In this document: one piece after another, positions 5,274-37,251 of the stretch
Layout of the letters: every line of letters begins with the position of its first letter
How positions within the stretch are numbered: position 1 is the first letter of the stretch
DNA from: Gammaproteobacteria bacterium
GTDB lineage: Bacteria; Pseudomonadota; Gammaproteobacteria; 21-64-14
NCBI GenBank assembly: GCA_027013145.1
Contig: JALUXX010000058.1
Span: 1 to 37,251 of the forward strand
Direction: 5' to 3'
Length of the DNA stretch: 37,251 nt
Program-made: the position numbers and the translations under genes
Notes under the pieces: generated by a model
Database searches by the model: none
Seen by the model: the letters and a program-made list of their open reading frames with translations, nothing else
What the model was told of the DNA's origin: nothing

Positions 5274-5297
5274 AAGCTGTGTAAAAGAACAAAAGAG

Positions 5298-5359
5298 AAC
5301 AAAAGGGGGACAGATTTATTTGAGCGGTCGCTCAAATAAATCTGTCCCCCCCTTTTGTT
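5298..5359. repeat. Long near-perfect palindrome of the GGGGACAGATTTATTT type
   Basis: Arms of about 29 bases flank a 2-base centre at 5327-5328; the right arm has two extra C residues in its C run. The core is GGGGACAGATTTATTT at 5306-5321 and its complement at 5334-5349. It sits between the convergent DUF488 and EamA genes, so it could also act as a two-way terminator, since the right arm is followed by TTTTGTTTCG. The arm resembles the IS-end segment at 115-142 (ATCTGTCCCC then TTTTG). Such palindromes recur in gammaproteobacterial genomes and are often associated with IS200-like REP transposases (RAYT); that link is inference here. Confidence 0.75.
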
Positions 5360-5385
5360 TCGTTTCGGGCGCTGCGGCGCGTCGC

Positions 5386-6351
5386 TCAGCCCGTGTCCCG
5401 CGCGGCGGCTACGGCGGCGGCCTGGGCCGGCGCCGCGACGGGCTGGGGAGGCGGACGGCGCTGCAGGGATACGGTCGTGACGCCGGCGAGGACCAGCGCC
5501 GCGCCGCCGAGCTGGACCGCGGTCAGGGGTTCTCCGAGGAAGACCGCCGCCAGTACGAGGGTCGATACGGGGCCGATCGCGCCGATCATGGAGGCGGTGC
5601 GCGCGCCCACGCGACGGATGCCCGCGGCGAGCAGGAAGGCGGGCAGGACGGTGGACACCAGCGCCATCGCCAGGGCGAGCAGGTAGACCGGCCGCGGCTG
5701 CACCAGAGCGGCCGGCGGGTGGGTGGCGAAGAACTGAATCACCGCGGCGATGGAGGAGACCGTCATCACGTAGGCGGTGAGGCGCAGGGTGCCGATGCGG
5801 TGCAGCAGTTCGCCGCTGCCCACGAGATAGACGGCATAGGCGAAGGCGCTGGCGAAGACCAGTGCCGTGCCGAGAGGGATGTTGCCGCCTTCGACCCGCA
5901 GGTCGTGCAGGAAGACGACGGCGATGCCCGCGTAGCTCAGCAGCAAGGCGCCGATCTCGGGCCGGCGGATGGGGCGGCGGTCGCGCACCCGCGTGATGAG
6001 GACCACCAGCGTCGGGTAGATGAAGAGCACGAGGCGCTCCAGGCCGGCGCTGACGTACTGCAGGCCGAGGAAGTCGAACAGGCTCGCCAGATAGAAGCCC
6101 CCCAGGCCCAAAAACCCGACCGCGAGCCACTGACGCGCGTCGAGGCGCGGCGCGCGGGCGCGGCGGGACCACAGGGCCGCGATCAGGAAGAAGGGCAGCG
6201 ACAGGAGCATGCGCAACGCCAGCAGGGTCACCGCGTCCACGGAGTAACGGTAGGCGAGCTTGACGAAGATCGCCTTGGCCGAGAAGGCGACGGCGGCGAA
6301 CAAAACGAGCGCGGCGCCGGCGAATCGATCGCTGCGGGAAATCGGCTGCAC
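5386..6351 (-). CDS. EamA/DMT-family transporter
   Basis: A 321-residue inner-membrane protein with ten predicted membrane segments arranged as two EamA repeats. The first repeat begins with GAALVLFAAVAFSAKAIFVK and continues through LERLVLFIYPTLVVLI. The second runs from LGTALVFASAFAYAVYLV to LVLAAVFLGEPLTAVQLGG, the conserved EamA ending. Members export amino acids, metabolites or nucleotide sugars; the substrate cannot be deduced. The start is a GTG at 6351 with AGGGGG about eight bases upstream. The C-terminal tail is Ala/Pro-rich and cytoplasmic. It converges on the DUF488 gene across the palindrome. Confidence 0.88.
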   Translation of the reverse strand: MQPISRSDRFAGAALVLFAAVAFSAKAIFVKLAYRYSVDAVTLLALRMLLSLPFFLIAALWSRRARAPRLDARQWLAVGFLGLGGFYLASLFDFLGLQYVSAGLERLVLFIYPTLVVLITRVRDRRPIRRPEIGALLLSYAGIAVVFLHDLRVEGGNIPLGTALVFASAFAYAVYLVGSGELLHRIGTLRLTAYVMTVSSIAAVIQFFATHPPAALVQPRPVYLLALAMALVSTVLPAFLLAAGIRRVGARTASMIGAIGPVSTLVLAAVFLGEPLTAVQLGGAALVLAGVTTVSLQRRPPPQPVAAPAQAAAVAAARDTG

Positions 6352-6835
6352 GTTGCGGACCCCCTGCGGGCGTGGCGGGTCCGGGATCAGGGCAAGGCGG
6401 GCCGCGTCACGGACCCGCGGCTGCCTTGCTGGTGTACCGAAACTACCTGCGCAAGCCGCCGCGGCCGGTGGGTTTCACCAGCCACAGTCGACGGATGCGA
6501 AGCTGCCCGGCACGGTGGGACATGACCGGACTATAGGCGGGCCGGGGTCGTGGTGTCAAACGGCGGCAGGGCCGGCGAATCCGTGTGCGTGGATTGCCGA
6601 CTCCTGTCCTCCGCGGCGTGCTCGGAGGCCGCGCGCCCCGCCGGTGGACGCGCGTGCCGCCCCTTTTCCTGTCCCGCGTCGCAGGCGCACCACCTTGGGG
6701 CGCGCAATGGACCGAACCGCCGCCGGGGCCTGTTACGGGTGTCGCGGGCCGACGAGGAGGGTTGCTGTCGCCGCGACGACGGAAGCTTCGGGATGAATCC
6801 ACGAGAGGGGGAAGAGGATCCGCGGAACACATCAT
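6352..6835. other. Intergenic region without a recognisable gene
   Basis: About 480 bases upstream of the EamA gene (minus) and of the decayed lipoprotein gene (plus). A 9-base inverted repeat, GCGGGTCCG at 6375-6383 and CGGACCCGC at 6410-6418, lies in what would be the EamA leader. I see no convincing promoter or RNA. Confidence 0.5.
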
Positions 6836-7304
6836 TTGAAGAAGCGGTTGCGCCGGGCGTTGCTGGCGGCGGCTGTTCTGCTGGCCGGCCGCGGCGGCGG
6901 GATCGAGGGGATCTATGCGGATCATACCGGGCCCGTCTCGATCAAGTTCGAGTCGGGCAAGGCCTACATGAAGACGCCGGGCGGGACCCTGCAGATCGAC
7001 TGCGAGGTGGACGGTGACCACGTCCTCCTCAAAGACCCCGCAGGGAAACCTGGTGCTGAACCGGCGGCACGACGGGTCGCTGTCCAGCCCCTGCGACCGG
7101 ATCCCGAACGGCCTCCAGGGCGCGCACCCGCGCGGCAGACTGAGCCCGATCCTTGGGGGCGGGGCGGACGGGCTGTCCGTCGGCCTCGGTATGTGGTCTG
7201 TGGACAAGGGTCGGGGCCGTTTCCGGGAGTTCGTGAGTCCCGATCGCGGCGGCATCTTCGGCCGGGCGTTGCAGCGCGCGGACTCATCAGGTATAAGCCG
7301 TTGA
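6836..7304 (+). pseudogene. Decayed small lipoprotein gene (frameshift, lipobox cysteine lost, TTG start)
   Basis: The reading frame begins KKRLRRALLAAAVLLAG, a lipoprotein signal, but the next codon is CGC (Arg) where TGC (Cys) is expected. The mature part has IEGIYADHTGPVSIKFES and QIDCEVDGDHVLLKDPAG, typical of small lipoproteins with a G.Y.....G..SI.F..GKA pattern. After DPAG the family continuation NLVLNRRHDGSLSS is found one frame over: removing one A from GGGAAACC at about 7038-7045 restores it. The start codon is TTG where AUG-Lys-Lys would be expected. Three independent lesions argue for a pseudogene rather than one sequencing error. After the shift the frame runs to a stop at 7304, far beyond the usual end, so the 3' boundary is approximate. 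Confidence 0.65.
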
Positions 7305-7333
7305 TCATAAAACTAATCTAACACTGTGGTTAC

Positions 7334-7363
7334 TTGACACCTCTTTCGGATCTGGCCTAGACT
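7334..7363 (+). promoter_or_regulatory. Sigma-70-like promoter of the nuo operon
   Basis: A perfect -35 TTGACA (7334-7339) is followed after 18 bases by TAGACT (7358-7363), four of six matches to the -10. Transcription would start near 7370, about 75 bases before nuoA. It is the best promoter match in the window and the only one seen just upstream of the 14-gene operon. Confidence 0.65.
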
Positions 7364-7442
7364 GCCCGGGCGCGTCGGGGGGGCGGCACCGAAGGGGTGC
7401 GGGCGCCGGATGGGGACGCGAACGGACGTGGGGAGCGTGCGC

Positions 7443-7799
7443 ATGCTGGAAGGCTACCTGCCGGTACTGATGTTTATCGTCGTCGGCCTGTTGGTCGGCT
7501 CGGTGGCGATCATGGCGGGTTTCGTGCTCGGCCGGCGCCGCCCGGATCCGGCCAAACTCTCCCCCTACGAGTGCGGCTTCGAGGCCTTCGAGGACTCGCG
7601 CACGAAGTTCGACGTGCGCTACTACCTCGTGGCCATCCTGTTCATCATCTTCGATCTGGAGATCGCCTTCCTGTTTCCCTGGGCGGTGGCGTTGCACCGC
7701 ATCGGGGTGTTCGGGCTGGCCGCGATGGGCCTGTTTCTGACCATCCTGGTGGTGGGTTTCGTCTATGAATGGAAGCGGGGGGCCTTGGAATGGGAATAG
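7443..7799 (+). CDS. nuoA: NADH-quinone oxidoreductase subunit A
   Basis: A membrane-arm subunit of complex I of 118 residues with three transmembrane helices (about residues 6-30, 60-82 and 88-108). The loop after helix 1 contains [24 protein letters not shown] in pieces, including the conserved Glu-Cys-Gly of the quinone-site loop, followed by [16 protein letters not shown] chose the ATG at 7443 because TGGGGAG precedes it at suitable spacing and the membrane helix starts at once; an in-frame ATG at 7410 would add 11 residues not typical of the family. It is the first gene of the nuo operon and overlaps nuoB by 10 bases. Confidence 0.95.
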
Positions 7800-8281
7800 C
7801 CGAGTCACCGCTGCCGGTCCTACAGGAGCGTGGCTGGGTCACGACCTCGGTGGACCGTCTCGTGAACTGGGCGCGCACCGGCTCGATGTGGCCGATGACC
7901 TTCGGCCTCGCCTGCTGTGCCGTCGAGATGATGCATACGGCCGCGGCGCGCTATGACCTCGATCGCTTCGGCATGATCTTCCGCCCGAGCCCGCGCCAGT
8001 CGGACGTGATGATCGTCGCGGGGACGCTCGTCAACAAGATGGCGCCGGCGCTGCGCAAGGTCTACGATCAGATGGCGGAGCCCAAGTGGGTGATCTCCAT
8101 GGGCTCGTGCGCCAACGGCGGGGGTTACTACCACTATTCCTATTCGGTCGTGCGCGGTTGCGACCGTATCGTCCCGGTCGACATCTATGTCCCGGGCTGC
8201 CCGCCTACGGCCGAGGCCCTCTTCTACGGAATCTTGCAGCTCCACAACAAAATCCGCCGCACCAACACGATCGCCCGCTGA
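7790..8281 (+). CDS. nuoB: NADH-quinone oxidoreductase subunit B
   Basis: The peripheral-arm subunit that holds cluster N2, the last iron-sulfur centre before quinone, at 163 residues. Ligand motifs are present: the tandem cysteines in [11 protein letters not shown] (about residues 39-45), [16 protein letters not shown], and [11 protein letters not shown]. The start ATG at 7790 lies inside the end of nuoA (overlap of 10 bases), with GGGGGG upstream; in-frame earlier codons exist only inside nuoA. nuoC follows after 10 bases. Confidence 0.97.
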
Positions 8282-8291
8282 CGGACCGGCC

Positions 8292-9017
8292 ATGGCAGAG
8301 ACGATCGAAGATGGGGCGCAGCGCCTGCGGGACCGGTTCAAGGATGCACTGACCTCCGTCGTCGTGGCCCACGGCGAATGCACGGCCGAGGTTCCTGCGG
8401 CGCGCCTGCTCGAGGTGTGCACGGCGCTGCGCGACGAGCCGGATTTCGGCTTCGATGAGTTGATCGACCTGTGCGGCGTGGACTACGCCGAATACGGGGA
8501 GGCGGAGTGGATCGCGCGGGAGGCCACGGGGCGCGGCTTCAGCCGCGGGGTGCGCGGGCCCGAGGACGAACTGCGCGAGACGCCGCGCGCGCCGAGCCCG
8601 CGGTTCGCGGTGGTCTATCATCTGCTCTCGCTCCCGCGCAACCGCCGCCTGCGTCTGCGCACGTACGCGCCGGACGCCGATTTCCCGGTGGTGCCGTCGG
8701 TGAACGAGGTGTGGAACAGCGCCGACTGGTTCGAGCGCGAGGCCTTCGACCTCTTCGGCATCGTCTTCGAGGGGCACCCGGATCTGCGCCGGATCCTGAC
8801 CGACTACGGCTTCGTGGGCCATCCTTTTCGCAAGGACTTCCCCCTCAGCGGCACCGTCGAGGTGCGCTACGATCCGGAGCGCGCGCGCGTCGTCTACGAG
8901 CCGGTCAGTATCGAGCCGCGCGTGCTGGTGCCGCGGGTGATCCGCCACGATCATCGCTATGACGTCGACCGGCCCGAGGACGAGGGCCGCGAGGCGGCGG
9001 GGACGAAGCGGCCGTGA
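8292..9017 (+). CDS. nuoC: NADH-quinone oxidoreductase subunit C
   Basis: The 30-kDa hydrophilic subunit of complex I (241 residues), separate from NuoD as in most bacteria apart from the enterics. The conserved core runs [55 protein letters not shown] (split here as one motif region, residues about 137-172), then [12 protein letters not shown]. Between the N-terminal domain and this core is an Arg/Glu-rich insertion (about residues 65-97) seen in other proteobacterial NuoC proteins. The C-terminal tail is acidic and variable. Confidence 0.95.
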
Positions 9018-9077
9018 GGGGCGTTGCCGGTACCAGCGGCGTGCGCGTGGACGGCCCGGATTCCGCGGGAGGCGCCC

Positions 9078-10331
9078 GTGCCTGAGATCCGCAATCTGAC
9101 GATGAACTTCGGCCCTCAGCACCCGGCGGCCCACGGGGTGTTGCGCCTGGTCCTGGAGATGGACGGCGAGGTTATCGTGCGCGCCGACCCGCACATCGGA
9201 CTGCTGCACCGTGCGACCGAGAAGCTCGCCGAGAGCAAGCCCTACAACCAGAGCATCGGTTACATGGACCGGTTGGATTACGTGTCCATGATGTGCAACG
9301 AGCACGCCTACGTGCTCGCCATGGAAAAGCTGTTGGGGATCGAGCCGCCGTTGCGCGCTCAATACATCCGCGTGATGTTCGACGAGATCACGCGCATCCT
9401 TAATCACCTGCTGTGGCTCGGTACGCACGCCCTCGACGTGGGCGCGATGACTGTCTTCCTGTATTGCTTCCGCGAGCGCGAGGACCTGTTCGACTGCTAC
9501 GAGGCGGTGTCGGGCGCGCGCATGCACGCGACGTATTACCGCCCGGGCGGCGTGTATCGGGATCTGCCCGAGCGCATGCCGCAGTACCAGCCTTCGCGCT
9601 GGCGCAGCGCCCGCGACCTCAAGCGGATGAACCGGGCGCGGCAGGGATCGCTGCTGGATTTCATCGAGGATTTCACGGAGCGCTTTCCCCGTTACATCGA
9701 GGAATACGAGGCGTTGCTCACGGAGAACCGTATCTGGAAGCAGCGCACTGTGGGCATCGGCGTGGTGTCCCCCGAGCGCGCACGCCAGCTCGGCTTCACC
9801 GGCCCGATGCTGCGCGGCTCCGGGGTCGAGTGGGATCTGCGCAAGAAGCAGCCGTACGAGGTCTACGACCGGCTGGACTTCGACATCCCGGTCGGGACGA
9901 ACGGGGATTGCTACGACCGCTACCTCGTCCGCGTGGAGGAGATGCGTCAGTCCAACCGCATCGTGCGCCAGTGCGTCGAATGGCTGCGCGCCAATCCGGG
10001 GCCGGTGATGGTCGCGGACCACAAGGTCGCCCCTCCCCCGCGCGAGGAGATGAAGGCGGACATGGAGGCCCTGATCCATCACTTCAAGCTGTTTACCGAG
10101 GGCTTCTGCATCCCGGAGGGGGAGACCTACGCGGCGGTCGAGCACCCGAAGGGGGAGTTCGGGATCTATCTGATCTCCGACGGCGCCAACAAGCCCTACC
10201 GGCTGAAGATTCGGGCGCCCGGGTTCGCCCACCTGGCGGCGCTCGACGAGATGGCGCGCGGCCATATGTTGCAGGACTGCGTGGCGCTGATCGGCACGCT
10301 GGATGTCGTCTTCGGGGAGATCGACCGCTGA
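9078..10331 (+). CDS. nuoD: NADH-quinone oxidoreductase subunit D
   Basis: The 49-kDa subunit that forms the quinone pocket with NuoB (417 residues, the usual length). Key segments are [20 protein letters not shown] at residues 7-26, whose His and nearby Tyr line the quinone site, then [13 protein letters not shown], and a C-terminal [10 protein letters not shown] chose GTG at 9078 because GGGAGG lies just upstream and the conserved PEIRN start follows; an ATG at 9024 would add 18 unconserved residues. nuoE follows after 31 bases. Confidence 0.97.
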
Positions 10332-22399: not shown

Positions 22400-22564
22400 G
22401 GGGTCGGAGTCATCGTCCCAGCGCGTGGGCGGGGTCTTTGGAGGCTTTCCAGCGGGCGATGACTCCGACCCCGGGTTGGCGGGGTTGGGGCAGGGGTCGG
22501 AGTCATCGGGCCCAGGGCGTGGGTGGTCTTTGGGGGTTTTCCAGCGGGCGATGACTCCGACCCC
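22400..22564. repeat. Two tandem hairpin units with GGGGTCGGAGTCATCG arms
   Basis: Each unit has a perfect 16-base inverted repeat. Unit 1 arms are at 22400-22415 and 22457-22472; unit 2 arms are at 22493-22508 and 22549-22564. The arms are identical in both units, and the inner 40 bases are similar (both end TTCCAGCGGG) but differ at many positions, so the duplication (93-base period) is old or the copies arrived separately. The layout resembles REP/BIME-like elements moved by IS200-type RAYT transposases; that origin is inference. Confidence 0.8.
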
Positions 22565-22727
22565 GGGGTGTATGCGGAGGTTTCGCGTCCGAGCCCGGAG
22601 CGGGGTGGCAGGGGCCGGGCGGCAGGGGCGGGGCGGCCGCAGGTCATACGATCTCTATGTCATAAAATAAACGTCGTTATAACCGCTTATGGGCAGTTTG
22701 CAGAAAAAATCTCGAGCCGGCGGGAAT

Positions 22728-22756
22728 TTGACTTCGGTTGGATTCGGTCCAATACT
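22728..22756 (+). promoter_or_regulatory. Candidate sigma-70 promoter for the VPLPA-CTERM gene
   Basis: TTGACT (22728-22733), a 17-base spacer, then AATACT (22751-22756) give five of six and four of six matches. It lies at the edge of an AT-rich patch, with the start expected near 22763. No other candidate of similar quality lies closer to the gene. Confidence 0.4.
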
Positions 22757-23044
22757 TGCGCTCCCTGCGGAGACAGGGGCGGACGTGTCGACGGCCGGAG
22801 CATCGGCCCCCGAGGGCACCGGGGACACGGATCGAAGGCGGGCGGGTTTCCCCGGGTGGGGAGTCGCCCAGGGACTGGGATACACAGCCACGGTACGGCG
22901 CAATGTCCCGGAGGGACTGCGTGCGCGGGCCTGTATTCGGACGCTGCGGCGCGACGACCCATCGATGGGCGTCGCGGTCCCGGTGCCGGATCGGTCGGCC
23001 TTCGTATCTTCCGCCGCGGCACAAGAACAAGAGGAGTAACGGCC

Positions 23045-23941
23045 ATGCGTAGCGTTCAGCGGGTACGGGCACGCCGTCCGGCGTGCCTGCGGAGTCTGGT
23101 TTTCCTGGGACTGGCGGTCGGGTTGTGCGCCTCGGGCACGGCGGCGGCCAGCAGTTTCGTCACGCTCACCCCCTTCGGGACCCACGGGGCCAATCCGGGG
23201 ATCAATGAGCACTGGGTTCAGGTCGTCCCGACCTGGCAGGGGCCCGACTACCAGCCCGGATGTCCGAAAACGAGTTCGCAACCGAACGGTGGAACCTGTG
23301 ACGGTATCGCATCGATCGCCGACGCCCAGGCGGCGCTCGCTCTACCCTCCGGCAATGCCGCTTTGCTGGCGAGCGTGAACGGCGTCTACTCCGGGCCGAT
23401 CAACTACGCCAACGCGAGGTTCAACTACGACTATCCCGGCTATGACGGGTACCCCACCACGACCTTGCCGCCGCTGTTTACGAACGACAGCTATTCGGCC
23501 GCAAGTCCGAATCCACAGGAGAATTATGCTGGTGAACTCTCGGGCTACGTGTACGTTCCGGCGGGGCAATACAACTTCAGCGTGCTCGCGGACGACGGGA
23601 TGCAGTTCACCCTCAGCGGGGCCGGCGGGGCGTCCATCACCATGTCGCTCAACGGCCTCAATCCACACCACCCCACCGAATTCGGGTCCAAACTGAAATT
23701 CGAGAGCGGACTCTACAAGTACGACCTGATCGGCTACAACCGCCTCCAGGATGGCGTGTTGCGCCTGCTGATGGGCTCGGCCACGGGAAAGTGGGAGCCG
23801 AGCCTGATCCCGGGCGGGGCGTTCTATACGTCGGTCGCCCCAGTCCCTCTGCCGGCCGCGGGCTGGCTGTTCGGCTCCGGGCTGATCGGGCTCGTCGGGG
23901 TCGCCCGCCGGCGCGTGCGGCGGACCGGGGTCGCCGCCTGA
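23045..23941 (+). CDS. Secreted PA14-like protein with VPLPA-type PEP-CTERM sorting signal
   Basis: A 298-residue exported protein. It starts with a basic n-region and a Sec signal peptide (about residues 1-36, ending near GTAAASSFV). The middle resembles a PA14 fold: GYVYVPAGQYNFSVLADDG followed by a beta-rich stretch, as in sugar-binding PA14 domains. The C-terminus has VPLPA (267-271), a hydrophobic helix (GWLFGSGLIGLVGVA) and an Arg cluster (RRRVRR), the tripartite signal processed by exosortases. The ATG at 23045 is preceded by AGGAG, a strong ribosome site. No exosortase lies in the window. The polysaccharide-type genes downstream fit the usual link between PEP-CTERM proteins and matrix formation. 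Confidence 0.82.
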   Translation: MRSVQRVRARRPACLRSLVFLGLAVGLCASGTAAASSFVTLTPFGTHGANPGINEHWVQVVPTWQGPDYQPGCPKTSSQPNGGTCDGIASIADAQAALALPSGNAALLASVNGVYSGPINYANARFNYDYPGYDGYPTTTLPPLFTNDSYSAASPNPQENYAGELSGYVYVPAGQYNFSVLADDGMQFTLSGAGGASITMSLNGLNPHHPTEFGSKLKFESGLYKYDLIGYNRLQDGVLRLLMGSATGKWEPSLIPGGAFYTSVAPVPLPAAGWLFGSGLIGLVGVARRRVRRTGVAA

Positions 23942-29355: not shown

Positions 29356-31593
29356 TCAGCGGCTGATGTAGGCCTCCCCGACTTCCTTTACGACATCCGT
29401 GGAACCGTTGCCCGTGCTGACCAAATACAGCGCCTTGGTACCGCCCAGCGGCCAGTAGATGTCGAAGTACTCACCTCCCGTGATGGGCACTCCCTCGATA
29501 TGGTACATCCCGTTCGTCAGTGACGCCTTCATGGTTGCCGGCGCCGTGGTCATGCCGGAAATGGTCATGGTCGCGGTAGGTGCGGCGCCGCCGCTGCCGG
29601 CCGTGATCTCGATCTCGCCCGTATGGAACGCGCTCTTGAAACGCGTGTAGTCGTCCGCGTACAGGGCGCGGGCGAGGAACGTGAGATGCCCGCTGAACGC
29701 GCTCGGGGTCGTCGCCCCAGACACGAAGGGGAACGCGACAAAAGGCTCAGGCCAGTTCTTCGAACGGAATACCCCCGGCTGGGTCGGATCGAGCTGCGAC
29801 ATAGTCGTCGCCGGGGTGGCGCAGTCGCCCATACTGAAGCCGTTCGTGCCCATCTTGGCGCAGCCCCCGTCCTGGCGCATGCCGGTCATCGCGCCCGAAG
29901 GTGCCAACTCCATGATCTCGGCGGAATCGCCGAGGCCGTTGGCGTGGTCCGCCATGTCGTTGCCGTTGTCGTCCTTTTCGGCCGCGATCATGGACCCGTT
30001 CATGACGAAGGCTCCCATGAGCCCAGGAGTCTCGAAGGTCGCCGATCCGCCGGCAGCGCTCAACGCCGAGGTATCGAGCAGGTTGCTGGACCCGAACGAG
30101 GAGAGCTGGAACTCCGCTTGGCTTGTCGCCTGGGTGTGGGTGAGGCCCACGACCCACGGTCCGACCGAGGCGATTTCGAGATCGTACTTCTTGTTCGGCT
30201 GGAGCGAAGGGATGACCGCGTCGCTGCGTGCCAGATAGACGTTTCCGAAGCCCTGGATGACCCCGGAGGTATCGGTCTTCACATAGATGCCTTGGCGGTT
30301 CCCGGGTGCGAACATGACGTACACATCATTGACCGTGGTGGTGCCGCTCACTACGTTGTAATGGATCACCACGATGTCGGCCGGGAAGGTCGTGGTTCCG
30401 CTGGTAAACGAGTAGACGCCCGAGTTGAGCGCGTTGTACTTCAGCGTCAGGGCGTTGGGGACCGCGACGGTGGCGTTCTTGGCGCTATTCGCGGTAACGA
30501 CGCCAAGGGAGATATCGGGTGTCACGGCCGTCTTGGCGTCGATGGTATTGAAGGTCACGTCGCCCCAGCCGAGATCCTCCCCCTTCCCGAAGACCTCGTG
30601 GGCCAACAGCCGGTACTTCTGGCCCTGGTACAGCGCCTGTATCGCCGCGGTCAGCTTGGTCGTATCGACCCCGGTGGTGGGCACGAATGCTGCGACGAAC
30701 ACGCCGCGACTCAGATCCGAAGGCGTAGGCGCCGACAGGTTCCCGAGGGTGGACTGGTTTCCGCTGACGTCGCCGAACAGGCCGACCGTGCCTGCGATCC
30801 GTGACAGAAAGGTCGGCGCGGTGGAACTGTCGGTGATGTTCAGCAGCATCGCGTCGCCTTGAACTTTCCCGGTGATGATCTCGCCGCCCGATCCGGTGCC
30901 GCTGATGTCACCGCTGCTCGATATGGTCGCGTCGGCAGCGTTGAGTGCCAGCGATCCGCTCGAGAAGAACGTCGATATGTTCTGGCCGAGATTCTGGTTG
31001 TTGATGGAAAAGAAAACGATTTTGTAGCTGCCGGCCGCAAGGGAGGTCTTCTGCGTCCCCGACGCCAGGGTCTTGTCGAGCGCCGTCTGGAGCGTTGCGT
31101 TGCTCACCGGGTCGCCGTACAGGTCCGTCGTCGTCAGACCGAGCCTGGTGGCGAGAGCGCTTTGGGCCGTGCTCAGCGATTGAGTCAGCGACGACTGGGC
31201 CAGCACATTGGTGATGGGGGAGACATGGAGGCTGCCGCCGCTGCTGGAACCCGCGAAGAAAAGGGTCGGGGCGGGCATTCCGGTATCGATGTTGGTGCCG
31301 CCCTCGGTCTTGAGGTAGACCGTCGAGGGGGCGGTCGATACGGTCAGCGCGACGCTGAAATTTCCGTTCGCGTCGGTCGTTCCCGATCCGATCTGTTGAG
31401 TCATCGCTGAATCGCTGTAGACGGTCACCGCGGCATTCTTGACATATCCGTCGATGACGTTTCCCTTCAGCACGCTTGAGGCCGCAGCCGGTGTGCCGGC
31501 GCTTCCGGAACCCCCGGAGCATCCCGCGAGCACGCTTGCGGCGAGTGCCGCGGCCACCAAGCCGCGCACCGCCCGATTGGGAATTGCGTACAT
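29356..31593 (-). CDS. Large secreted lipoprotein of unknown function
   Basis: The 745-residue product starts with a lipoprotein signal peptide whose lipobox is VLAGC, so Cys25 would be acylated, followed by a flexible Gly/Ser/Ala linker. Residues about 43-110 look like a carboxypeptidase-regulatory-like or Ig-type beta domain (NVIDGYVKNAAVTVYSD and the TTDANGNFSV turn). The rest is a long, beta-rich, Ser/Thr/Gly-rich body without a family I recognise. It contains two cysteines near GGCAKMG and MGDCATP that may form a disulfide. The ATG at 31593 has an excellent ribosome site, AAGGGGAGGT. It is monocistronic and opposite to its neighbours. A surface or outer-membrane location is inferred. Confidence 0.75.
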   Translation of the reverse strand: MYAIPNRAVRGLVAAALAASVLAGCSGGSGSAGTPAAASSVLKGNVIDGYVKNAAVTVYSDSAMTQQIGSGTTDANGNFSVALTVSTAPSTVYLKTEGGTNIDTGMPAPTLFFAGSSSGGSLHVSPITNVLAQSSLTQSLSTAQSALATRLGLTTTDLYGDPVSNATLQTALDKTLASGTQKTSLAAGSYKIVFFSINNQNLGQNISTFFSSGSLALNAADATISSSGDISGTGSGGEIITGKVQGDAMLLNITDSSTAPTFLSRIAGTVGLFGDVSGNQSTLGNLSAPTPSDLSRGVFVAAFVPTTGVDTTKLTAAIQALYQGQKYRLLAHEVFGKGEDLGWGDVTFNTIDAKTAVTPDISLGVVTANSAKNATVAVPNALTLKYNALNSGVYSFTSGTTTFPADIVVIHYNVVSGTTTVNDVYVMFAPGNRQGIYVKTDTSGVIQGFGNVYLARSDAVIPSLQPNKKYDLEIASVGPWVVGLTHTQATSQAEFQLSSFGSSNLLDTSALSAAGGSATFETPGLMGAFVMNGSMIAAEKDDNGNDMADHANGLGDSAEIMELAPSGAMTGMRQDGGCAKMGTNGFSMGDCATPATTMSQLDPTQPGVFRSKNWPEPFVAFPFVSGATTPSAFSGHLTFLARALYADDYTRFKSAFHTGEIEITAGSGGAAPTATMTISGMTTAPATMKASLTNGMYHIEGVPITGGEYFDIYWPLGGTKALYLVSTGNGSTDVVKEVGEAYISR

Positions 31594-32411
31594 TGTTGGT
31601 ACCTCCCCTTTGGCCGGTTCGCGATCCCTTTTGCGCGAAGCGGCGTTTCCGGTGCCAATGGTCCTTACCAACCGCAGTCCAAACCGGTACACGGACGTGT
31701 TTCCGGGATGGGCTGCAGTCCCCCTAACTACAGCGTGCTAATCGGCACGGACAGGTGGTTGGTTTAGGCCATTTTCACGGGGAGAGGCGGAAGCCGGCAT
31801 GATATAGGAGAGACAAGTACGTAGAGGAAGGGAGAACAACTACAAATCTGAATGATTGGTTAGCGGCGATGCACGGTTCGGGCGCATTGCGAATTCCGGG
31901 CCCGCGAGAAGGCTGGAGAGAATTGCGTGCCCTGGCGCATCCCGGTTGCGGGGCCCGGCTCCAGGAAAAAACGAATCAGTCTAGCCCCGAACTTTTTGCT
32001 GGTCTTGATCCAGCTCAAATCGCCGTCGGGTCATCGAAGGGACAATTCCCCAGGCCGATTGTACGGCCGCGCCGACGGGTGGCCCTGAGGGGCCTCTGGA
32101 TCCGGGTCGCTCCGGGGATGGCGCGGGTGCATACCGCTGCGGGGCGGGGCTATTAAAGAAGTGCCGGCGTGGCCCGAGGAGTGTACCACCTGCTCCGAGG
32201 TTGCCTGAGCCCGAGCCGCCAGGAGGTCAAGGTCGTGGGTTCGTTTGTCCGAAGTCCTGCGTCGTGTCCACGTCCGCCGAACGTCGCTACGCTAGGAGCG
32301 GTCCTCAATAGGTTCTGCGTCGTGACGCTGGCCGGTGGCTTGACTCAATATCCCTGTATTTCGCCCGGCGGTGCATGCAGCAACCGATAAGACGAACATA
32401 GGGTAATCGAG
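31594..32411. other. Intergenic region between the divergent lipoprotein and cox genes
   Basis: About 820 bases carry the upstream regions of both transcripts. GC content drops near 31800-31860, which has runs such as GATATAGGAG. A possible FNR-type site lies at 32005-32018. Short open frames at 31869-32156 and 32169-32390 have no family features. I found no convincing sigma-70 promoter for coxB. Confidence 0.45.
32005..32018. promoter_or_regulatory. FNR/ANR-like half-palindrome upstream of coxB
   Basis: TTGAT, four bases, CTCAA gives nine of ten positions of the FNR consensus TTGAT-N4-ATCAA. It lies about 400 bases before coxB, far for direct control unless the transcript starts well upstream. 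One such match in 800 bases may be chance. Confidence 0.2.
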
Positions 32412-33635
32412 ATGCGGGCGAAGATACGGCTGCAAATAGTGTTGGCCGGCACCGCGATGGGTGCCTTTGTTACGAACACCGTGCGAGCGAAGGCGTTCTA
32501 TAATTTCCCAACCCCCGTAACCCCGGTCGCCGAAGACACGCTCTTCATTCATGATCTGTTCCTGGCGATCATCACGGTGCTCTTCATCATCGCCCTCGGG
32601 GTCCTGCTCTACTCCGTGGTCCGGCACCGCCGCAGCCGCAACCCGGAGCCGGCGACGTTCACCGGTCCGAGGACACGCAGGCAGTGGATGTGGAGCGCGG
32701 TTCCGGTTCTCGTGATGATCGTGATCGACTATATCGTGCTCGGAATCCCGTCTGTCGAGGCGATCATGACGCTTTCCAACAAGGGACATGACCGGCTCGT
32801 GGTCGTTGCAACGGCGAGTCAGTGGAAGTGGCACTACGCCTATCCAAGGTACGGAATCGGGTTCAACAGCGTGCTGTCGACCCCTCGCGACGAAATCTAC
32901 GGCAACGCACCGAAGGACAAGCACTTTCTGTTGGAGGTCAATCATCCATTGGTCCTTCCGACCGGGGAGAAGGTCGGCATCGTGCTGAAGTCGACCGATG
33001 TGATCCACGGCTTCTGGGTACCCGCCTTCGGGATCAAGCAGGATGTGATCCCCGGCTACCTACGCAAGACCTGGGTCAAAATCGACAGGCCGGGAACCTA
33101 CCGCGGCCAGTGTTCGGAACTCTGCGGCGTTGGGCACTCGTTCATGCCGATCGTCGTGGTGGCCAAGACCCCCGCCGCCTTCCATGAGTGGGTTGTCGCC
33201 GAGCAGGCACGGGAGGCGGGCGCGCGGGCGGCGGCCACACAGACGTGGAGCCGGCAGCGGTTGATGACGCGAGGAAAGGTCGTGTTCGACCGGAACTGCG
33301 CGGTCTGCCACCAGGCCAGCGGTCTCGGTATCCCAGGAACCTTCCCGCCGATCGCCACCGGGCACCCGTTCTCGGCATCCAAGGCGCTGCTGGACAAGCT
33401 CTCCGCGCGTGGTTTCTACAAGGACGGTCGGATCGTCGAGGGGCCGTTGTCGAACCATATCGACATCGTTCTGCACGGCATCCCGGGGACGCCGATGCCG
33501 GCGTTCGGAAAACAACTGAACGCATCAGACATCGCGTCCGTGATCACCTATGAGCGCAACGCCTTCGGAAACCGCACCGGACAGGTCGTACAACCGAGCC
33601 GCATCGTAGCCGCCCGGCGCGCGAAGGCGAACTGA
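32412..33635 (+). CDS. coxB: Cytochrome c oxidase subunit II with fused C-terminal cytochrome c domain (caa3-like)
   Basis: The electron-entry subunit, 407 residues. After a signal-like N-terminus there are two transmembrane helices (about 48-72 and 95-115), then the periplasmic cupredoxin domain. All Cu-A ligands are present: H199 (VIHGFW), C234, E236, C238, H242 and M245 (QCSELCGVGHSFM). A C-terminal cytochrome c domain follows, with CAVCH (296-300) for heme attachment and M362 in GTPMPAF as the distal ligand. The glutamate that begins the E-x-x-W motif of helix 2 and guards the K channel elsewhere is Gln91 here (QWMW). coxA starts 36 bases later. Confidence 0.95.
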   Translation: MRAKIRLQIVLAGTAMGAFVTNTVRAKAFYNFPTPVTPVAEDTLFIHDLFLAIITVLFIIALGVLLYSVVRHRRSRNPEPATFTGPRTRRQWMWSAVPVLVMIVIDYIVLGIPSVEAIMTLSNKGHDRLVVVATASQWKWHYAYPRYGIGFNSVLSTPRDEIYGNAPKDKHFLLEVNHPLVLPTGEKVGIVLKSTDVIHGFWVPAFGIKQDVIPGYLRKTWVKIDRPGTYRGQCSELCGVGHSFMPIVVVAKTPAAFHEWVVAEQAREAGARAAATQTWSRQRLMTRGKVVFDRNCAVCHQASGLGIPGTFPPIATGHPFSASKALLDKLSARGFYKDGRIVEGPLSNHIDIVLHGIPGTPMPAFGKQLNASDIASVITYERNAFGNRTGQVVQPSRIVAARRAKAN

Positions 33636-33671: not shown

Positions 33672-35261
33672 ATGAGCACCGTAGACATCGACGCCATGGA
33701 GGAACAGCATCATCCGCGGGGTATCACCCGCTGGCTGTACACGACCAACCACAAGGACATCGGCATCCTGTATATCGCGTTCGGGTTTCTGATGTTCATC
33801 GTGGGCGGCATTCTCGCGATGCTGATCCGTGCGGAGCTGATGGAGCCCGGGATGAAGGTCATGGGTCCCGAACTCTACAACCAGATCATCTCGGTGCACG
33901 GGCTGGTGATGGTCTTCGCCGCATTGATGCCCGTGAGCGCGGGGATGGTCAACTATCTGATCCCGATGATGATCGGCGCGCCCGACATGGCGCTGCCGAG
34001 GCTCAACAACTTTAGCTTCTGGCTTCTGCCGCCGGCAGCGATCTTGCTGGTCCTGCCGTGGCTGCTGGAGTTTTTCGGCATCGGCAACGGGACCCTGGAT
34101 ACCGGTTGGACCATGTATGCGCCGCTATCCGTGCAGAGCGGTCCGGGAATGGACTTCGCCATCTTCGCGGTGCTGTTGCTGTTCCTGTCGTCGACGCTGG
34201 CCTCGATCAACATCCTGGTCACGGTACTCAACCTGCGCGCCCCCGGGATGACCTGGGACAAGATCCCCATCTTCGTATGGAGCTGGGTCAATACGGCGGT
34301 GTTGCTGATCGTCGTATTTCCGGCGTTGGCGGGCGCAGCGATCATGCTGCTGCTGGATCGGCACTTTGGGACGCATTTTTTCAGCGCAGCCGGCGGCGGG
34401 GACCCCCTGCTTTGGGTCCACATGTTCTGGTTCTTCGGACACCCCGAGGTCTACATCCTGTTGCTGCCGACGGCTGGAATCCTGGTGCATATCCTGTCGA
34501 CCTTCGCGCGCAAGCCGGTCTACGGGTACAAAGCGCAGGTCTATTCGTTTGCTGCGATCACGATGATTTCGGTGATCGTCTGGGCGCATCACATGTATAC
34601 GTCTGGACTGCCGACGGCGGCGAACATTTATTTCATGTTCTCGACCATGGCGATCTCGATTCCGGTCGGGATTCTGTTCATCTGCTGGTTCGGGACCATT
34701 TGGAAAGGGTCGATGACCTTCGAGACGCCGATGCTGTTCGCTCTCGGATACATCGTGTTGTTCGGAATCGGAGGGCTGACCGGCCTTATCCTTTCGGACG
34801 CGGCGGCGGATCAGCAATACCACGGGGCCTACTTCGTCATCGCCCATTTCCACTATACGCTGATCGGGGGCCCGGTGATGGGCGTGCTTGCTGCGTCCTA
34901 CTACTATCTTCCGAAACTGACCGGCCGGATGTACGACGAGACGCTCGGGAAATGGCATTTTTGGCTGACGATGATCGGATTCAACGTAACTTTCTTTCCG
35001 CAGTTCCTGCTCGGAATCGACGGGATGCCGCGGCGGATTGCGGACTACGCCGTCAAGTTCGCACCGCTCAACATGGCGTCGAGCATCGGGGCGTTCGTCC
35101 TCGGAGCGGCGCAGTTGATCTTCCTGTACAACGTGTACCGGACCCTGGTGGGTGCAGGGAAGCCGGCGACGGGTCGGGTGTGGGACGGTGCACAGGGTCT
35201 CGAATTTACCTTGCCTTCGCCGCCTCCCTACCACACCTTCGAGGTACCTCCCACGGTCTAG
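33672..35261 (+). CDS. coxA: Cytochrome c oxidase subunit I (A-type D channel, no canonical K channel)
   Basis: The catalytic subunit that reduces O2 to water, 529 residues with 12 helices. Ligands are intact: H76 and H394 (heme a), H392 (heme a3), H257, H306 and H307 (Cu-B), and Y261, which cross-links to H257 in GHPEVY. D-channel residues N94, D105, N112 and E259 are conserved. The K-channel positions are not: the canonical Ser, Thr and Lys of helices VI and VIII are V272, V332 and L335 (IPVGILFICW in place of IPTGIKxFSW). At the Mg site the Asp after H384 is G385. Arginines of GMPRRIADY that hold heme propionates are kept. The start ATG at 33672 follows GGGGGAGGGAG. Confidence 0.97.
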   Translation: MSTVDIDAMEEQHHPRGITRWLYTTNHKDIGILYIAFGFLMFIVGGILAMLIRAELMEPGMKVMGPELYNQIISVHGLVMVFAALMPVSAGMVNYLIPMMIGAPDMALPRLNNFSFWLLPPAAILLVLPWLLEFFGIGNGTLDTGWTMYAPLSVQSGPGMDFAIFAVLLLFLSSTLASINILVTVLNLRAPGMTWDKIPIFVWSWVNTAVLLIVVFPALAGAAIMLLLDRHFGTHFFSAAGGGDPLLWVHMFWFFGHPEVYILLLPTAGILVHILSTFARKPVYGYKAQVYSFAAITMISVIVWAHHMYTSGLPTAANIYFMFSTMAISIPVGILFICWFGTIWKGSMTFETPMLFALGYIVLFGIGGLTGLILSDAAADQQYHGAYFVIAHFHYTLIGGPVMGVLAASYYYLPKLTGRMYDETLGKWHFWLTMIGFNVTFFPQFLLGIDGMPRRIADYAVKFAPLNMASSIGAFVLGAAQLIFLYNVYRTLVGAGKPATGRVWDGAQGLEFTLPSPPPYHTFEVPPTV

Positions 35262-35360
35262 CCATGGCCGCCGGAGTGCCACGGGAATGGGGTTAATGAC
35301 GTACGCGGCGCAGGCGGTCCAGCGGAACGGTTGCAACGGGAGCTTTCGGAGAGCGCGCGG

Positions 35361-36221
35361 ATGAGCATATCGCAGGCACATGGCGGGCACTATTACCTGC
35401 CGAAACCGAGTCCGTACCCGGCCCTGATGTCGACGGCCCTGCTCCTGCTCGGGGCCGGTGGGGCGCTGGCGGTCAACGGGTACGTGCTCCCGGCTGGCTG
35501 GCTGGCGGGAGCCGGGGGCCTGCTGGTCGTCTACGTGCTCTCGGGCTGGGTGGGGGATGTGATCCGCGAAAACCGCCGCGGTGTGTACGGCGAGAAGGAG
35601 GGCGTTTCGTTCCGATGGGGAATGGGTTGGTTCATCGCCTCCGAGGTGATCTTTTTCAGCAGCCTGTTCGGGGTATTGTTCTACGAACGTAACATTGCTG
35701 TCCCCTGGCTCGCCTCCCTGAATTCCCACTATTCCCCCTGGGCGGGATTCAAGGCGGTGTGGCCGACGAGCGGGCCGGCGGGCGCGGCGTTCACACCGGA
35801 GCACGCATGGGGCATACCGGCGCTCAATACGCTCATCCTGCTGAGTTCCGGCGTGACGGTCACATGGGGTCTGCAGCAAATCACCAAGGGGCACCGCCGC
35901 GCGGCGACGTGGGCGGTCGGCGCGACCATATTGCTGGGCGGGGTCTTCCTGGCGCTGCAGTGCCGCGAGTTCTATCTCGCCTACACCGAGCTGCACCTGA
36001 CTCTCGGTTCGGGGGTGTACGGTGCCACCTTTTTCATTCTCACCGGCTTCCACGGGCTGCACGTGACGATCGGTATGATCATGTTGAGTGTGATCTTCGG
36101 TCGTTGTTTGAAGGGGCACTTCGGGCCGGACAACCACTTCGGATTCGAGGCGGTGTCTTGGTACTGGCATTTTGTGGATGTCGTATGGCTGATGCTGTTT
36201 ATCTTCGTCTACTGGCTGTAG
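35361..36221 (+). CDS. coxC: Cytochrome c oxidase subunit III
   Basis: A 286-residue subunit with seven helices that stabilises subunit I and its proton uptake. It opens with HYYLPKPSPYPALMS, the usual N-terminal motif, continues with GWFIASEVIFFSSLFGVLFY, and ends with the histidine-rich GFHGLHVTIGMIML and FEAVSWYWHFVDVVWLMLF, the family signature. The ATG at 35361 is chosen over an in-frame codon ten residues upstream because HYYLPK is reached at the normal distance. The 99 bases between coxA and coxC hold no ctaG gene, unlike the usual coxB-coxA-ctaG-coxC order. Confidence 0.95.
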   Translation: MSISQAHGGHYYLPKPSPYPALMSTALLLLGAGGALAVNGYVLPAGWLAGAGGLLVVYVLSGWVGDVIRENRRGVYGEKEGVSFRWGMGWFIASEVIFFSSLFGVLFYERNIAVPWLASLNSHYSPWAGFKAVWPTSGPAGAAFTPEHAWGIPALNTLILLSSGVTVTWGLQQITKGHRRAATWAVGATILLGGVFLALQCREFYLAYTELHLTLGSGVYGATFFILTGFHGLHVTIGMIMLSVIFGRCLKGHFGPDNHFGFEAVSWYWHFVDVVWLMLFIFVYWL

Positions 36222-36308
36222 CTCCCAGCTCGGGTGCGGGAGGCCGCGGACGTGGCACAGATCCGCACCGGAATGGGGTGGCTGAGAATACGCGATCGGG
36301 GGCGGGAA

Positions 36309-36773
36309 ATGGGGATTGACTGCGCGGGCATTCGTGAAGCGCGGCTGGAACGGGCGGACTCGGGTGCCCCGGGACGGGAGCGGATCATGGATCTGCTCAA
36401 GGGGCGGAAGATCCGCTCGACGCCGCACCGGGTCGCGGTCGCTCAGGCGTTGTTTTCGCGCCCGCAGCATCTTACGGCCGACGAGGTGCTCGCCAAGGTC
36501 AACGGCGGACCGAGGAGGATTTCAAGGCCGACGGTATACAACACGCTCAACCTCCTGGTCCGGAGGGGGCTGGTCCGCGAGCTCGTCATCGATCCGGAGC
36601 GCAGGATCTTTGACGGCAATCTGGAGGAGCACCATCATCTGTACGACCCGGCGACGGGGACGCTGACGGATCTGCCGGTGTCGGCCGTGACCCTCGACGA
36701 TTCGGTGATGGAGGCGCACCCTGAGGGATGCGGATTTGATGTCGTGATTCGCCTGCGCCGCCGGGCCGATTGA
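36309..36773 (+). CDS. Fur-superfamily regulator, Irr-like
   Basis: A winged-helix DNA-binding protein of about 154 residues. The recognition part reads RSTPHRVAVAQALF and SRPTVYNTLNLLVRRGLV, typical of Fur proteins. In the sensing part it has three consecutive histidines, H108-H110 (EEHHHLYDPATG), as in Irr, and ends DVVIRLRRR, again as in Irr. The C-x-x-C zinc motifs of Fur are absent; only two cysteines exist (C5 and one in GCGFD). Irr proteins of Alphaproteobacteria sense heme and control heme synthesis, so the place between coxC and ctaB suits. No classical heme motif (Cys-Pro) is visible. The ATG at 36387 (128 residues) has a better ribosome site, GGGAG, so the start is open. Confidence 0.8.
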   Translation: MGIDCAGIREARLERADSGAPGRERIMDLLKGRKIRSTPHRVAVAQALFSRPQHLTADEVLAKVNGGPRRISRPTVYNTLNLLVRRGLVRELVIDPERRIFDGNLEEHHHLYDPATGTLTDLPVSAVTLDDSVMEAHPEGCGFDVVIRLRRRAD

Positions 36774-37102
36774 GACCAGCGTAAATGGTTTCCGGCCATT
36801 CCGGAGCCTCCCGTGGCCCGGATGCAGGCCGTAGGCCGAAATCCGGGAATCGCGGTTCTGGGGGAATTTCCGTCCCCGGGATGCGCTGCGCTCCATCCGG
36901 GCCACATCTTAGGGTTGCCCCATTCGGGGGACATGCCGGTTTGCTTCCGGATTCCGCATCTCTGCATCCGGGCGACGGGTGCCAGGCATTTCCGTAGGCC
37001 TCGCGGGAGCGGTCCGAGAACCGTATTGACTACTCATGCAGCATTGCGATTCCTGCCGAGTCCCCGATTTTTCGAGTGCGCGCGGCGGGGAGCGAGGTGG
37101 TG
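36774..37102. other. Intergenic region before ctaB
   Basis: About 330 bases filled mainly by the palindromic repeat at 36813-36905 and a smaller inverted repeat, CCGGAT at 36947-36952 and ATCCGG at 36966-36971, that looks like part of a second copy. I see no clear promoter for ctaB. Confidence 0.5.
36813..36905. repeat. 93-base interspersed repeat with GTGGCCCGGATG terminal inverted repeats
   Basis: The ends GTGGCCCGGATG (36813-36824) and CATCCGGGCCAC (36894-36905) are perfect 12-base inverted repeats. Inside are GCAGGCCGTAGGCCGAAATC and GCGCTGCGCTCCATC, the pattern of the widespread gammaproteobacterial element that reads roughly CCCGGATG-G-GCGCAGC-AAATCCGGG. It would fold into a long hairpin in RNA. 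Such units are small non-autonomous elements; any role at this site is unknown. Confidence 0.75.
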
Positions 37103-37251
37103 ATGGCGAACGCGGTTGAGAGTCGGTGGGAGCGTGCGGGCTGGGATCCGCTGGGCACGGTGCGGGCCTATCTGGGCCTGTGCAAGGTGCGAGTGGTGGC
37201 GCTGATCGTGTTCACGGCGATGGTGGGGATGTTTCTGTCCACGCCGGGGAT
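37103..37251 (+). CDS. ctaB: Heme O synthase (protoheme IX farnesyltransferase), N-terminal part
   Basis: The first 49 residues are present before the window ends. They match the start of CtaB/CyoE: AYLGLCKVRVVALIVFTAMV and GMFLSTPG, where the family has YxxLTKPRVxxLIVFTAxVGMFLAxPG. The usual Pro of KPR is Val here. The enzyme adds a farnesyl group to heme b to make heme O, the precursor of heme A for CoxA, so the gene belongs to the oxidase cluster. GAGGTGGTG precedes the ATG; a GTG one codon upstream is also possible. The UbiA-type Asp motifs lie beyond the edge. Confidence 0.9.
   Translation, partial: MANAVESRWERAGWDPLGTVRAYLGLCKVRVVALIVFTAMVGMFLSTPG

Follow-up and report, generated by a model that had tools for sequence, protein, structure and literature searches.

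A stretch of 37,251 nucleotides from a gammaproteobacterial genome (assembly GCA_027013145.1, contig JALUXX010000058.1, positions 1 to 37,251; hereafter the window) carries an intact open reading frame of the Fur superfamily, Irr branch, at 36309-36773 on the forward strand, with coxC on its 5' side and the start of ctaB on its 3' side. Irr is ordinary in the class, and what is unusual is that this gene belongs to a lineage-specific pair of Irr duplicates situated at two oxidase operons. The most likely role of the pair, given a probability of about 0.5 on the sequence evidence, is that of neofunctionalised paralogs serving as dedicated local oxidase regulators, and it is the position of the genes that points to the neighbouring oxidases as their targets.

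The window gene runs from an ATG at 36309 to a stop at 36773 (154 aa), its frame being open from a GTG at 36234. It was assigned as an Irr-type regulator from a Pfam FUR match (56.8 bits against a cut-off of 23.1 in a profile search), from trees, from conserved columns and from a structural model. Since the codon-position GC (0.70/0.46/0.80) is gene-like and the protein keeps 25 of the 31 columns that are conserved at 90% or more in 49 orthologs, the frame is judged to be a real gene and not a chance ORF. The protein contains both EEHHHLYD (H108-H109-H110) and the ending GFDVVIRLRRRAD; its only two cysteines are far apart, with no CxxC pair, and the structural CxxC zinc site is absent. The HHH motif, the ending and the lack of zinc cysteines, from which the original prediction had proposed an Irr-like protein between coxC and ctaB, are therefore all as described. 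There is no CP anywhere in the protein and thus no Cys-Pro heme regulatory motif. That motif is not universal among Irr proteins and hence was not taken as defining.

Upstream, on the same strand, are the genes of a caa3-type cytochrome c oxidase: coxB (32412-33635), encoding subunit II with a fused C-terminal cytochrome c (Pfam COX2 and Cytochrom_C; TIGR02866 above its cut-off), coxA (33672-35261), encoding subunit I (Pfam COX1, 511 bits; TIGR02891, 663 bits, slightly below the cut-off of 671), and coxC (35331-36221), encoding subunit III (Pfam COX3, 179 bits), the true start of which is probably the ATG at 35361. As the gap between coxC and irr is short (87 bp, 36222-36308, forward strand) irr may be co-transcribed with coxBAC; no promoter-like site was found in this gap. 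Downstream, a spacer of 329 bp (36774-37102) separates irr from ctaB and contains imperfect inverted repeats, which at 36800-36910 look REP-like by eye. The contig end leaves only a short 5' fragment of ctaB, the first 49 codons (37103-37251, forward strand), and its identification as a heme O synthase gene is therefore weak (a match of 32 residues to the NCBIfam heme o synthase model, 19.8 bits). A lipoprotein-like ORF of 778 aa without a Pfam match lies divergent from coxB at 29356-31692 on the reverse strand.

IrrA and Irr were the top-scoring NCBIfam models for the window protein, yet it fell below the cut-offs of both (88.8 bits against 150 and 78 bits against 170 for the Irr/IrrA models). 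Ordinary gammaproteobacterial Irr copies likewise fell short, with 115-135 bits, so the models cover an alphaproteobacterial subgroup only. Phylogenetic analysis, in which long branches call for caution and the bootstrap of the paralog tree was not fully settled, placed proteobacterial Irr together with Leptospira PerRA on a branch that excludes Fur, Zur and Bacillus PerR (SH-aLRT 94). The window protein was nested in the gammaproteobacterial Irr group and grouped with neither Fur nor Zur, the genome having a separate Fur on contig C16. The phylogeny thus upheld an assignment to Irr as opposed to Zur, Fur or a Bacillus-type PerR.

The genome (3.28 Mb, 67 contigs, 99.9% complete) has four FUR-family genes, namely one for Fur, on C16, and three of Irr type, on C4, C34 and C58, the last of these contigs being the window. 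Irr had been described as best known from Alphaproteobacteria, but Irr-type genes were found in 142 of 369 genomes drawn from the class (E 1e-20), more than one copy being present in this genome only, and searching with the C34 copy instead led to the same outcome. The three copies form one clade (99/90, the node that joins the window protein to the C4 copy), within which the window and C34 copies are sisters (100/93). Ordinary Irr of the class is normally single-copy and often adjoins thiO and pilin genes; the C4 copy lies behind thiO, an arrangement shared by 37 of 95 loci, and keeps 31/31 of the conserved columns against 25/31 in both duplicates. The window copy is ~48% identical to the C4 copy and its branch is long (1.1 to 1.4 changes per column). 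To judge from these comparisons the C4 copy is the ordinary Irr at the ancestral thiO-irr locus, and the window and C34 copies are lineage-specific, fast-evolving duplicates. No true ortholog of the window copy was found in the 369 class genomes or among the GTDB contig matches listed (best 49% identity).

A comparison of 95 Irr-type loci revealed an ICE-like box, TTAGACnnnGTCTAA, upstream of gammaproteobacterial irr, mostly ~35-40 bp before the start. It was present at two or fewer mismatches in 20 loci compared with 0.3 in shuffles, and at three or fewer in 41 compared with 5.9; in 36 further loci outside the derivation set, although including close relatives of it, there were 7 compared with 0.1, a mirrored control pattern giving 1. 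The box precedes irr in L039, L088, L101, L103, L127, L136 and others, it resembles the alphaproteobacterial ICE, and its position would imply autoregulation of gammaproteobacterial irr. In the genome studied here there is a weaker box upstream of the C4 irr, and a box among the closest matches to the pattern, TTAGAATTGATCTAA, which forms a perfect TTAGAnnnnnTCTAA palindrome, is found directly upstream of a rubrerythrin gene (C56:26068-26082; L239:1501-1515), which is followed by a gene for an Fe-S (CCG domain) protein. A caveat that must be applied is that matches across the genome at three or fewer mismatches were no commoner than those of a reversed control pattern, so the weight of the box comes entirely from the position of the sites and from comparison with other genomes. 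Elsewhere strong boxes precede a rubrerythrin gene in L092, genes for a di-haem cytochrome c peroxidase in L124 and, as identified by sequence similarity, in L159, and fur in L086. Because the rubrerythrin and peroxidase boxes parallel the targets of alphaproteobacterial Irr, which is reported to bind at mbfA/rubrerythrin-like and ccpA genes (PMC3413700), the ordinary copy of Gammaproteobacteria has the appearance of a functional Irr.

Around the oxidase genes themselves a scan for TTAGACnnnGTCTAA near coxB, coxC, the window irr, ctaB and cyoA gave nothing above background, and no motif (palindromes, words) common to the coxB and cyoA-irr upstream regions exceeded shuffles. The rhizobial ICE, TTAGAAnnnTTCTAA, had two sites in the window at three mismatches, no more than in shuffles, with none near cox. 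An ICE-like motif near coxB and ctaB, which had been suggested as something to look for, was thus absent in both its rhizobial and its gammaproteobacterial form. The top Irr-box score within the window (11.3) was at 22734-22756, in or ahead of an ORF at 22523-23941 the C-terminus of which resembles a sorting signal. At C27:3986-4000 (L160) there is a strong box, TTAAACACATTCTAA (score 14.2), preceding a frame whose translation resembles an FadL-type outer-membrane protein; the same contig also carries a third oxidase cluster, which is cyo-like and has no Irr copy.

Alignment showed that the PerR regulatory ligands His37, Asp85, His91, His93 and Asp104 correspond to H54, D102, H108, H110 and D121 of the window protein, all five being invariant among the Irr copies compared, and that the Cys4 structural zinc of PerR has no counterpart. 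An AlphaFold model (mean pLDDT 87.6) has the Fur fold and its best PDB matches are all Fur, PerR or Mur proteins. Changes at conserved columns lie largely in the DNA-binding domain, with P37S, Q40H, K73R, A74P and F83L in the window protein and K73M, A74P and N78S in the C34 protein, which also has HCH in place of HHH. A74P is therefore common to both duplicates and K73 is changed in both, with either Q40 (window) or N78, here Ser (C34), changed in addition. An asparagine of the DNA-binding helix is conserved in PerR and Irr (PMC8638967) and N78 is probably this residue. In the duplicates sensing appears to have been kept and DNA recognition changed, and with sensor ligands retained while near-invariant DNA-binding residues are altered it is plausible that they bind a new target sequence.

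The window protein could be a PerR-like peroxide sensor, in which H2O2 arising close to the oxidase would oxidise the Fe(II) and so relieve repression, a reading that is compatible with local oxidase control. All five PerR-type ligands are present, among them an aspartate (D121) at the PerR D104 position, the nearest solved structure to the model is Leptospira PerRA (5nl9), which also lacks CxxC, and boxes of the ordinary copies lie before genes for rubrerythrin and di-haem cytochrome c peroxidase. However, the tree and the family scores favour Irr over Bacillus PerR, the structural CxxC zinc site is absent, and PerRA is only ~28% identical and falls outside the Irr clade of Proteobacteria. 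An aspartate at the D104 position is common to PerR and Irr, and an Irr-like box has been reported for perRA (PMC8638967). A peroxide sensor is a tentative proposal, and the signal may be heme, iron or peroxide.

The second paralog lies on C34 (L036:9982-10503, forward strand) and is oriented divergently from an operon for a bo3 quinol oxidase, made up of cyoA (8310-9317), cyoB (6245-8296; CyoB above its curated cut-off), cyoC (5628-6248) and cyoD (5291-5626), all on the reverse strand. This adjacency, which was not noticed when the original prediction was made, provides the strongest argument for a link between Irr and oxidases. The genome has about 7 COX1-family loci, and if roughly 3,200 genes are assumed the chance of a further paralog abutting one of them is estimated at ~0.4%. 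As the caa3 and bo3 oxidases are only ~37-39% identical and belong to old families, they did not duplicate together with the regulators. The suggestion that Irr controls an oxidase has gained from the sister copy at cyoABCD, an independent case, as regards the link itself, but not as regards an Irr box, there being none at the oxidase genes.

The linkage argument is built on two adjacencies in one genome. Neither cox nor cyo was found near any other Irr locus among the more than 100 examined, no Fur-family neighbour occurred within 1.5 kb of the next-nearest coxC loci (0/29), and a conserved neighbourhood with cox/cta genes, the lack of which had been named as counting against the original prediction, was absent in every relative examined. 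A genome of the same genus (G001) has Fur and lacks both Irr and aa3/bo3-type COX1, so it provides no test of the linkage; the joint absence of Irr and aa3/bo3 oxidases is suggestive only. No report of Irr at an oxidase operon was found in the open-access literature.

A different view of the same arrangement is that the window protein regulates unlinked genes or overlaps the ordinary Irr regulon, and that its place in the cox operon serves only to keep its level in step with expression of the oxidase. This would fit with the lack of a recognisable operator at cox or cyo, and with the ordinary Irr probably acting in trans on rubrerythrin, before which a box is found both in this genome and in L092. 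It is nonetheless rather unlikely, since two duplicates at two different oxidases are improbable by chance (the ~0.4% estimate applies to the second) and the divergent orientation of the C34 copy and cyo is what is usually seen with a local regulator, not with a passenger. A decaying duplicate with no present function might account for the long branch and the loss of 6/31 conserved residues, but is improbable given the intact frame, the gene-like codon GC, the retention of all sensor ligands and most conserved DNA-binding residues, and the occurrence of A74P in both duplicates. Chance adjacency, the duplicated iron/heme regulator having some function unrelated to the oxidase, a view to which synteny known from this one genome only lends some colour, has little to recommend it when the same pattern recurs at a second, unrelated oxidase.

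Among known systems the Irr proteins of Alphaproteobacteria (Bradyrhizobium, Rhizobium, Brucella, Rhodobacter) belong to the same clade as the window protein and share its HHH, its lack of CxxC and its VVIRLR-type C-terminus, the likeness extending in the ordinary gammaproteobacterial copies to an ICE-like box and to its presence at genes for rubrerythrin and for cytochrome c peroxidase (cf. PMC3413700). The window protein differs from them in falling below the NCBIfam cut-offs, in having no Cys-Pro heme motif and altered DNA-binding residues, and in being encoded at an oxidase operon without an Irr box there. Ordinary single-copy gammaproteobacterial Irr, as at the thiO-irr locus on C4, is the direct parent lineage and has the same sensor ligands, the window copy differing as a fast-evolving duplicate. 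CtaR of Acidithiobacillus ferrooxidans, a predicted iron-responsive regulator in a ctaA-ctaB cluster just downstream of the cox operon, is comparable in position and in idea but is an unrelated protein; as a member of the Rrf2 family it was ruled out as an Irr (PMC2754497). The idea that the organism oxidises ferrous iron is not indicated, rusticyanin, the marker searched for, not having been found.

The window gene arose within the lineage by duplication of an ordinary gammaproteobacterial Irr. Under the preferred reading, that of local oxidase control, it would then have been recruited to regulate transcription of the adjacent caa3 oxidase genes (coxBAC, perhaps ctaB), its C34 sister doing likewise for the bo3 quinol oxidase (cyoABCD). 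The window protein would be a homodimeric winged-helix regulator with Fe(II)/Mn(II) at H54-D102-H108-H110-D121, the DNA binding or stability of which would be altered by iron, heme or peroxide. It would bind a site near its own oxidase operon differing from the Irr box, and oxidase synthesis would thereby be matched to heme/iron supply or oxidative load.

Regulators that respond to oxygen or redox state are generally held to govern the choice of terminal oxidase. The extra Irr copies suggest a separate switch for each oxidase. It is conceivable, if doubtful, that a global iron/heme regulator has been duplicated into locus-encoded switches for caa3 and bo3, that each switch has acquired its own new operator and perhaps an altered sensor (HHH/HCH), and that in consequence cofactor supply and not oxygen or redox would choose the oxidase. 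One by-product of the analysis is a testable Irr box for many Irr-type proteins of the class, and the duplicates may themselves offer a natural example of how a duplicated regulator retains its sensing while its DNA recognition changes. If true, the presence at two oxidase operons of a regulator from the heme/iron branch would tie the choice of oxidase to cofactor supply or peroxide load.
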